Source of the DNA: Deferribacteraceae bacterium V6Fe1 | Lineage (GTDB): Bacteria; Chrysiogenota; Deferribacteres; Deferribacterales; Deferrivibrionaceae | Direction of reading: 5' to 3' | NCBI GenBank assembly: GCA_022813675.1 | Contig: CP063375.1 | Location: 372,001-436,000 of the forward strand | DNA length: 64,000 nucleotides | Part shown: piece after piece, positions 37,229-39,417 of the stretch | Numbering within the stretch: the stretch's first letter is position 1 | Layout of the letters: every line of letters starts with the position of its first letter | Made by a program: the position numbers and the translations under genes | Notes under the pieces: model-generated | Database searches by the model: none | Seen by the model: the letters and a program-made list of their open reading frames with translations, nothing else | Told to the model about the DNA's origin: nothing

Positions 37229-39241
37229 ATGAAAAAAATATCTATGCTTAAGAAATTACTATTATTGTTACTGCTGCCAATTACGCTTTTTGCGGCCGGC
37301 CCGCTTGATGACTTATACGACTTTTTCCCGAAATCAAGTCAACTGCAAGGGGGGAATAAAAAATGGCTTTACACAAGTATAACGGAAAAAAGGAATGATG
37401 ATTATGTCGTATTGTCAAGCACATACACATACTACAACGAACAAAATGAAAAAATATTGGGTATCAACAGAAACACAAACTTCATAGTTGATATTGCCAT
37501 TTATTTTGCAAAAAATCCGACTGTTGCAAAATCTTTGTATAATAAAAATCTCCAAGAATCCAAGCTCCCTGTCAGGCGAGAAGTTGACTTTGGTGAAGAA
37601 TCTACCGTGTCAATCAAGCCAATTTCACTTAAAGATTTTAAGGCTGAATACAATATTTTAATACTCAATAAGAATTTTTTAATTAGTATCAAGACAGACG
37701 ATGGTTTTGCTCTCATGGAGTTTGCGGATTACTTTGATAAGATTGTTAAAAACTATATGCTTGCCAACATCGACAGGTTTTTTCTTGATAGATTCAAAAT
37801 CAAACTTTCTTATAACGACAACAAGTTGTCCGAAGAAATTGTATCAACTAATACGGATGTAAGTACAATAATCATCAAAGGGAAAGTTATAGATAGCAAA
37901 GGAAAACCTGTTTTTAATGCCAAGCTAAGCCTTTTGGGTTACGGTTATGAAACTACGACTGATGAGAAAGGTGAATACCGCTTTGAAATAAAGACAAATA
38001 CAAAAAATAAAAAATACATAGAATTTACAAAAAATTTTATACTTACCTCTCAGGAAGTCAAGCAAGAAACCCTGCCATTGGTGGCAAAAATCGAGATAAA
38101 ACAAGCTCATAAAACCGAAAATGCAATAGTGAGAATAGACTCTGATAAGCTAACAGGAACTTTAATATCAGGCAACAGAATAAATAAACTTACAAATATA
38201 AAATACTATAACAATACTTTGAGTTTTGTCAGGGACTGCTCACCAAAAGGTTCTACATTTAAATGTAATCAGAAAATAGAATTTATCATAGTAAATAATA
38301 AAATAACAGGGACAGTTATAGGATTTGGCGGCAAAGGGACAATAGACGGTAAAATTTACAGTCAAATCAAAGAAAAAGCTTATTTTGTAAAAGATAAACT
38401 TTTGATTGAAAAAATAGAAACAGATAAATCACTAAATGTAAAACATATAGAAAAAAACAACTTGGTTATAAAAAATACAAATGATATAAAACAGTTTATC
38501 CATTTTACCTTAAAAGATTACACTCCTTCTCCGTTAGATATTTCATACGAACTAAAGCTTACAAAGCTACCTGGGCTTATGAGTCAAAAATCCGCACCAC
38601 TATATCTTTTTGAAGGGGAAATCAAAGATAATAAATTAATCCTTAATAAAAAAAATGAAATTATTATCAAAAACACAGAACAGCCTGTCGGCTACTCATT
38701 CAAAATAGACTCTCCAGAAAAAGAGTATTTTATAGGTTTCCTACCTGAGTACAGCTTTAAAGAGTCGATTTTATTCTCATTTGAAACTGCCATAGACACC
38801 CTTGCACCAAAATTAATAGTAAAGTCTTTTGGAGATGAATCTTCAGAACAAAAAATTGATTTTACAATTCAAAAAAGTGATAAAGATTTTGCCTCTACCA
38901 CAAAAGAGATTAAAGGGGATAAAAAACCTGATACTCTCTTAAAATTAAAGGGGGTAAAAGGGGGAATAACTGATATTGAGATATCTCTCATAGGTAAATT
39001 TAAATATTACTGGTCAACAATGCCAAATAAAATACTCCCCGTACCTGTAGTCTTGCTGAAAGGAAAAGTTGTCAATTCTCAAAATGGGCTTTTTAATGTA
39101 ATAGTATCGGAAAATGATGAACTATTAATATATTTAGGTTATCCTTCATGGGTAAGCTTTGACAACAGTCTTATCAATATTACTCTGACGATAGATGGTA
39201 AAAAGGTTGAATTAAGTAAGAAGATAACTACATTAGAATAA
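37229..39241 (+). CDS. Secreted protein of unknown function with a carboxypeptidase-regulatory-like domain
   Basis: I do not recognise this 670-residue protein as a whole. A Sec signal peptide (about 1-23, ending LFAA) is clear. Residues about 211-250 (GKVIDSKGKPVFNAKLSL and TTDEKGEYRFEI) match the carboxypeptidase-regulatory-like/transthyretin beta-sandwich. The rest is beta-rich and lysine-rich, with only two Cys, which may pair. It is probably periplasmic or bound to the outer membrane. The tiny membrane ORF at 39259 follows after 17 bases and is likely co-transcribed. Confidence 0.72.
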   Translation: MKKISMLKKLLLLLLLPITLFAAGPLDDLYDFFPKSSQLQGGNKKWLYTSITEKRNDDYVVLSSTYTYYNEQNEKILGINRNTNFIVDIAIYFAKNPTVAKSLYNKNLQESKLPVRREVDFGEESTVSIKPISLKDFKAEYNILILNKNFLISIKTDDGFALMEFADYFDKIVKNYMLANIDRFFLDRFKIKLSYNDNKLSEEIVSTNTDVSTIIIKGKVIDSKGKPVFNAKLSLLGYGYETTTDEKGEYRFEIKTNTKNKKYIEFTKNFILTSQEVKQETLPLVAKIEIKQAHKTENAIVRIDSDKLTGTLISGNRINKLTNIKYYNNTLSFVRDCSPKGSTFKCNQKIEFIIVNNKITGTVIGFGGKGTIDGKIYSQIKEKAYFVKDKLLIEKIETDKSLNVKHIEKNNLVIKNTNDIKQFIHFTLKDYTPSPLDISYELKLTKLPGLMSQKSAPLYLFEGEIKDNKLILNKKNEIIIKNTEQPVGYSFKIDSPEKEYFIGFLPEYSFKESILFSFETAIDTLAPKLIVKSFGDESSEQKIDFTIQKSDKDFASTTKEIKGDKKPDTLLKLKGVKGGITDIEISLIGKFKYYWSTMPNKILPVPVVLLKGKVVNSQNGLFNVIVSENDELLIYLGYPSWVSFDNSLINITLTIDGKKVELSKKITTLE

Positions 39242-39258
39242 AATCAAAGGAGGCGATT

Positions 39259-39417
39259 TTGAGCCAATACAGTGAGTATATCGGGCTTATCTTATTTATA
39301 GGCTTGATAATAGTCTTAAGCCTTTTCAAAGGTGGCGGCTGAGCTGCCGATTCATGCAGTATCGAGGATCGATACAAAAAGGAAACAAAAAAGAAAGATA
39401 AAAAAAAGGGGAGATAA
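39259..39417 (+). CDS. Candidate selenoprotein: small single-helix membrane protein with in-frame UGA
   Basis: AAAGGAGG at 39246-39253 precedes a TTG start at 39259. The first 27 codons give one membrane helix (IGLILFIGLIIVLSLF) and then KGGG before a TGA at 39340-39342. The same frame stays open for 24 more codons (AADSCSIEDRYKKE, then a lysine-rich tail) to a TAA at 39415-39417, which lies in the loop of a terminator. A 7-bp hairpin with a GGA loop begins 16 bases after the UGA. If the UGA is read as Sec, the product has 52 residues with U-x4-C. If it is a stop, a 27-residue membrane microprotein remains (39259-39342). The short form is well supported by its ribosome site; read-through is a hypothesis. 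Confidence 0.55.
39359..39375 (+). promoter_or_regulatory. SECIS-like stem-loop downstream of the UGA
   Basis: GTATCGA and TCGATAC form a perfect 7-bp stem with a GGA loop. The first loop base lies 24 bases after the last base of the UGA. Bacterial SECIS elements are hairpins just downstream of the UGA with a small loop that begins with G. No T run follows, so it is not a terminator. Confidence 0.5.

Follow-up and report, generated by a model that had tools for sequence, protein, structure and literature searches.

The described genes closest in design to the one reported here are the bSECIS genes of the E. coli FDH type, in which an in-frame UGA is followed just 3', within the coding region, by a hairpin whose small loop starts with G at 16-37 nt, in genomes that carry selABCD (PMC13188914). 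The criteria given there for a bacterial SECIS element are a stem of 4-16 bp, a loop of 3-9 nt with a G in its first two positions, a distance of 16-37 nt from the UGA and a folding energy of -7.5 kcal/mol or lower. The same work, an inventory dated May 2026, lists 119 prokaryotic selenoprotein families and subfamilies and gives NCBIfam accessions for its families. A second paper (PMC12013277, 2025) states that Cys homologues now seem to exist for every known selenoprotein, and that its deep-Sep method may filter out any selenoprotein that has none.

Here we describe a gene from a 64,000-nucleotide stretch of the genome of Deferribacteraceae bacterium V6Fe1 (this whole stretch is called the window below) that shares these features of the FDH-type genes. 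Judging from its sequence and those of its relatives, it very probably encodes a 52-residue selenoprotein with Sec at UGA codon 28 (Table 1). It differs from the known bSECIS genes in that it fits none of the 119 listed families (an isolated GenBank annotation may exist), has no Cys homologue that we could find, and encodes a product of 52 aa with a membrane helix. In layout it recalls the eukaryotic SELENOK and SELENOS, with which it shares one membrane helix, a Gly-rich stretch, and Sec and basic residues that are predicted to be cytosolic. However, the Sec stands 24 residues from the C-terminus, the SECIS would lie within the coding region, and no Pfam family matches, those of eukaryotic selenoproteins included. 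The initial annotation had confined this likeness to layout, and we agree; it is probably convergent. With the UxxC/CxxU redox selenoproteins the product shares a Sec and a nearby Cys, but the spacing is U-x4-C or U-x6-C and there is no thioredoxin fold.

Table 1. Features of the small gene and its surroundings, in window positions.
Feature	Positions	Strand	Basis
c0, 670-aa exported protein, CarboxypepD_reg-like domain	37229..39241	+	directly upstream in 17/21 genomes; Pfam match below cut-off
Ribosome-binding site AGGAGG	39248..39253	+	read directly
Putative selenoprotein gene (52 aa) with TTG start, in-frame TGA and TAA stop	39259..39417	+	read directly; a single TGA in each of 21 homologues, at the matching position
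Predicted transmembrane helix, residues 3-23	39265..39327	+	hydrophobic stretch; AlphaFold2 helix 3-23
Candidate Sec codon UGA (U28)	39340..39342	+	TGA in 21/21 homologues, Cys in none
Cys33, invariant, second redox candidate	39355..39357	+	U-x4-C in f1-f4, U-x6-C in f5; codon TGC or TGT
Predicted SECIS hairpin, 7-bp stem, GGA loop	39359..39375	+	folding; invariant in 20/21; host selD has the same architecture
Lys-rich C-terminal tail	39376..39414	+	codon-position base composition bias
Predicted intrinsic terminator around TAA	39401..39430	+	folding prediction

The translated gene reads LSQYSEYIGLILFIGLIIVLSLFKGGG-U-AADSCSIEDRYKKETKKKDKKKGR. A gap of 5 nt separates AGGAGG from the TTG at 39259, and AGGAG-type sites are present upstream of many homologues too. 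The frame runs for 27 codons to the TGA and for 24 more to the TAA (39415-39417), which lies inside the loop of a terminator formed by a 13-bp hairpin and a T-run (-17.9 kcal/mol). This is the layout that the initial annotation had given, from the ribosome site and TTG start, through the Cys five residues past the UGA (Cys33 relative to U28), to the TAA within a terminator loop, and direct reading together with folding of the terminator bears it out.

When 51 genomes of the phylum Deferribacterota were searched in six frames at the protein level, homologues turned up in 21, all within families f1-f5, and a profile search of the same genomes recovered the identical 21 and no other convincing member. 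Position 28 had been singled out as the place where relatives should have Cys or UGA; each of the 21 has UGA there, as its only internal TGA. The protein is conserved on both sides of this codon, with E-values down to 1e-27 for other genomes. The common plan is a short, mostly acidic N-terminus, a membrane helix that has YIG or a similar motif close to its beginning, glycines ahead of U (slightly different in one f2 member) and a Lys-rich tail. The outcome named in advance as fatal to the idea, that homologues all stop at the UGA, did not arise, and all 21 continue in frame with a near-invariant C-S-I-E-D-R-Y and the hairpin. The motif after U is CSIEDRYKK, with CSVEDRYKN in G008 and CSIEDRYGN in G009, and C, S, E, D, R and Y are invariant. 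Lys makes up 58% of the 21 tails, whose base composition depends on the position within the codon, the pattern expected of coding DNA (chi-square P 2e-19, for sequences that are related).

No Cys form was found in the 51 genomes by profile search with checking of weak matches, nor in a scan of genome contigs. Prediction tools usually ask for such Cys homologues, which the definition of a bacterial selenoprotein gene does not require. The weak matches, in G003, G001, G028, G002, G006 and G022, proved on reading to be fragments or other peptides that lack the helix-U/C-CSIEDRY layout. A scan of 84,980 prokaryote species, one genome each, which possibly left out close relatives of the window, gave Deferribacterota-type records only, among them Calditerrivibrio, Denitrovibrio and Deferribacteraceae. 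The viral contigs scanned gave no relatives.

It could be argued that the UGA is a true stop, that the product is a 27-aa membrane microprotein, and that the hairpin works as a 3' RNA element, affecting stability or some gene farther downstream. The hydrophobic peptide encoded ahead of the UGA would by itself make a complete microprotein, and UGA recoding in bacteria is known to compete with termination. However, a frame that conserves amino acids continues past the UGA in 21 genomes, with its six invariant residues and the codon-position bias of its Lys tail. Furthermore, the terminator in the window is followed by a convergent gene, so the hairpin has nothing downstream to regulate, and the gene is strictly tied to selA, as described below. 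We therefore judge a true stop to be very improbable.

The stem of the predicted hairpin (GTATCGA/TCGATAC) is a perfect 7 bp with a GGA loop, starting 16 nt past the UGA and leaving 23 nt between the UGA and the loop, exactly as first described. Its energy is -7.4 kcal/mol when folded alone (z -5.4) and -8.7 kcal/mol when folded with its flanks (z -1.6). The initial annotation had held that a hairpin after the UGA, with a small loop and an early G, fits known bacterial SECIS elements. Against the published values (PMC13188914) this fit stands for stem, loop and distance, and the energy is borderline. The distance to the loop is 23 or 29 nt among the homologues, a difference of exactly two codons, and both values fall within 16-37 nt. 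Comparable hairpins, which we define as those whose stem of at least 7 bp closes a G-containing loop of 3 nt located 16-37 nt from a TGA, accompany 40 of the 2404 TGA triplets in the window, and 18 of those 40 attain -7.4 kcal/mol. In a single genome alone the hairpin is only suggestive of a SECIS, and because it is not very rare by itself, the case is decided by comparison across genomes.

Conservation across the 21 genomes raises the hairpin far above chance. The six codons that span the stem-loop, AGT-ATC-GAG-GAT-CGA-TAC, are identical in 125 of 126 cases; among all Arg codons of the window, CGA accounts for 4%. This synonymous invariance starts and stops at the stem: the Cys codon just 5' varies (15 TGC, 6 TGT), the Lys codons just 3' vary silently, and among the invariant residues upstream Gly uses four codons and Phe two, with the codons of conserved Tyr residues varying too. 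The codon invariance under the stem-loop is a signature of nucleic-acid constraint on top of the protein constraint. Stem covariation is almost nil, the one change among the 21 being an A-U to G-U replacement in G008 that keeps the pairing, and the argument for pairing draws on invariance, prediction and analogy with selD. A compensatory variant, GTACCGAGGATCGGTAC, found in G020 stands in an unrelated context and was discarded.

A near-perfect and almost invariant inverted repeat of 17 bp might also be a DNA operator, or another protein-binding site, that falls by chance within the gene. Yet there is one copy per carrier genome, except for a match with two mismatches in G024, and the few matches outside the gene lie in unrelated coding contexts. 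The repeat is, moreover, always in the same frame at 23 or 29 nt from the TGA, and an operator is barely credible to us.

Decoding as Sec calls for a dedicated machinery, and the initial annotation had named the lack of selABCD as grounds for giving up the proposal. All four genes are in the host genome (2,358,333 bases, one contig): selA (528 bits), selB directly 3' of it (292 bits), selC, the gene for tRNA-Sec (60.7 bits; gathering score 47), and selD (343 bits, with one in-frame TGA). The gene selU is present as well. SelD cannot be made unless its own in-frame TGA is recoded, and UGA must therefore be recoded at least once in this host. In these genomes selD shares with the small gene a UGA followed by a 7-bp stem and a GGA loop, and presumably a single SelB reads both; selD differs in encoding an unrelated protein and in that the loop stands 17 nt past the UGA, as in the host, compared with 23 or 29 nt. 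Given this common hairpin design, one SelB would meet similar elements in the two genes. GGA is likewise the selD loop of the other f1-f4 genomes, and in G015 the closing pair has changed in a compensatory manner from C-G to U-A with the GGA loop in place; in the f5 genomes read the loop is GGC, GGG or somewhat larger. All formate-dehydrogenase-like matches in the host genome are without an internal TGA, so that no Sec form of this enzyme was seen, and Sec decoding in this organism may rest on SelD and few others.

The distribution of the gene follows that of selA, which is present in 19 of the 21 carriers; the two others are assemblies 73% and 87% complete, both with a TGA-containing selD. 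Among the 30 non-carriers selA was found in G050 only. When genomes at least 90% complete are counted, selA is in 18/18 carriers versus 1/21 non-carriers (Fisher P 3e-10, a value uncorrected for relatedness and therefore too small). The loss of the gene in genus g6, within family f5, looks like a separate event. Six genomes have selU and no selA, and in these the gene is absent; it therefore tracks Sec decoding and not selenium use generally. As separate observations, G038 (f7, 97% complete) has a TGA-containing selD and selU and no selA match, through either an assembly gap or a Sec machinery that is being lost, and the outgroup family f10 (G001, G003) has selU, a selD without an internal stop, and no selA.

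Read-through is known to occur where a stem-loop follows a stop codon, and the UGA might accordingly be passed by a near-cognate tRNA or by weak release and not as Sec. Against this, the codon is always TGA and never TAA or TAG in 21 genomes, the presence of the gene follows selA, and host selD has the same hairpin design. We regard such read-through as exceedingly improbable.

In g6 and f7, neither of which has selA, the gene directly after c0 encodes a protein whose sequence reads as KdsA (GPCVIES..., FKASFDKANRTS), with nothing between. The small gene is cleanly gone, with neither the 27-residue peptide nor a Cys codon retained, and its neighbours c0 and kdsA stay. In several f5 carriers the small gene is followed by a 266-residue protein (cluster c2) of about KdsA length, which we infer to be KdsA from its same place in relatives. 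The upstream protein, c0, has two invariant Cys residues (337 and 346, C-x8-C), is strongly matched in most genomes across the phylum, and has no Pfam or NCBIfam match above cut-off. Its AlphaFold2 model (pLDDT 79, pTM 0.39) is multi-domain beta, and a search for function through this structure was abandoned, with PDB matches that are mostly generic beta-sandwich proteins at low TM-scores. An obligate operon partnership was likewise rejected: the link is conserved, yet each gene occurs without the other. Calditerrivibrio carries the small gene without c0, and the pair is therefore not an obligate complex.

AlphaFold2 gives the membrane helix good confidence (block pLDDT 75-90 over residues 1-20) and adds a charged helix at residues 35-50 with low confidence. 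We propose that SelB and tRNA-Sec, together with the 7-bp, GGA-loop hairpin, would decode UGA 28 as Sec, that translation would then run on to the TAA, and that the product would be a microprotein that crosses the inner membrane once. Judged from its charges by the positive-inside rule, the short acidic N-terminus would be outside, and the cytoplasmic side would hold Sec28 and Cys33 together with the Lys-rich tail; the likely topology is thus a single membrane helix whose cytoplasmic face carries Sec and Cys. Some f5 tails have acidic residues that bring their net charge near zero, and the topology argument is therefore weaker there. Sec28 and Cys33 could form a reversible selenenylsulfide, that is, a membrane-anchored thiol/selenol redox site, which might, at the cytoplasmic membrane surface, reduce or sense either peroxide or an oxidised partner. 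This redox function is our best guess, and we offer it tentatively.

The functional part of this explanation, and only that part, is contested by a selenoprotein in which Sec and Cys bind metal or selenium, or which serves as an accessory subunit stabilising a membrane complex; we give these roles a little less than an even chance. Single-helix microproteins are often accessory subunits, and the genomic link to exported c0 holds in 17 of the 21 genomes, but c0 persists without the gene, as the gene does without c0 in Calditerrivibrio, and neither needs the other. The absence of a Cys form argues that selenium chemistry would be needed for whatever the protein does, and this need alone does not separate redox from metal binding.

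Searches of family databases gave no match in Pfam, apart from one chance match to SurA_N_3 (E 0.19), and nothing in NCBIfam 20.0 at E <= 10 for 16 members. The deep-Sep paper (PMC12013277) makes no mention of the genera for which we searched it. The small gene appears to be a Sec-only family and thus an exception to the Cys-homologue rule of that paper. We see an even chance that it is an obligate-Sec family, one that never existed with Cys, arose in Deferribacterota, is dropped each time Sec decoding disappears, and may help, with SelD, to maintain the Sec machinery. If true, such help would apply to genomes like that of the host, where no Sec formate dehydrogenase was found. Tiny Sec-only proteins escape gene callers and selenoprotein finders alike, and this gene was overlooked because of its in-frame stop codon. 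That Sec-free relatives have lost the gene exactly, with the neighbours on either side conserved, amounts to a clean natural experiment, through which one can test why sulfur will not do for some function that requires selenium.
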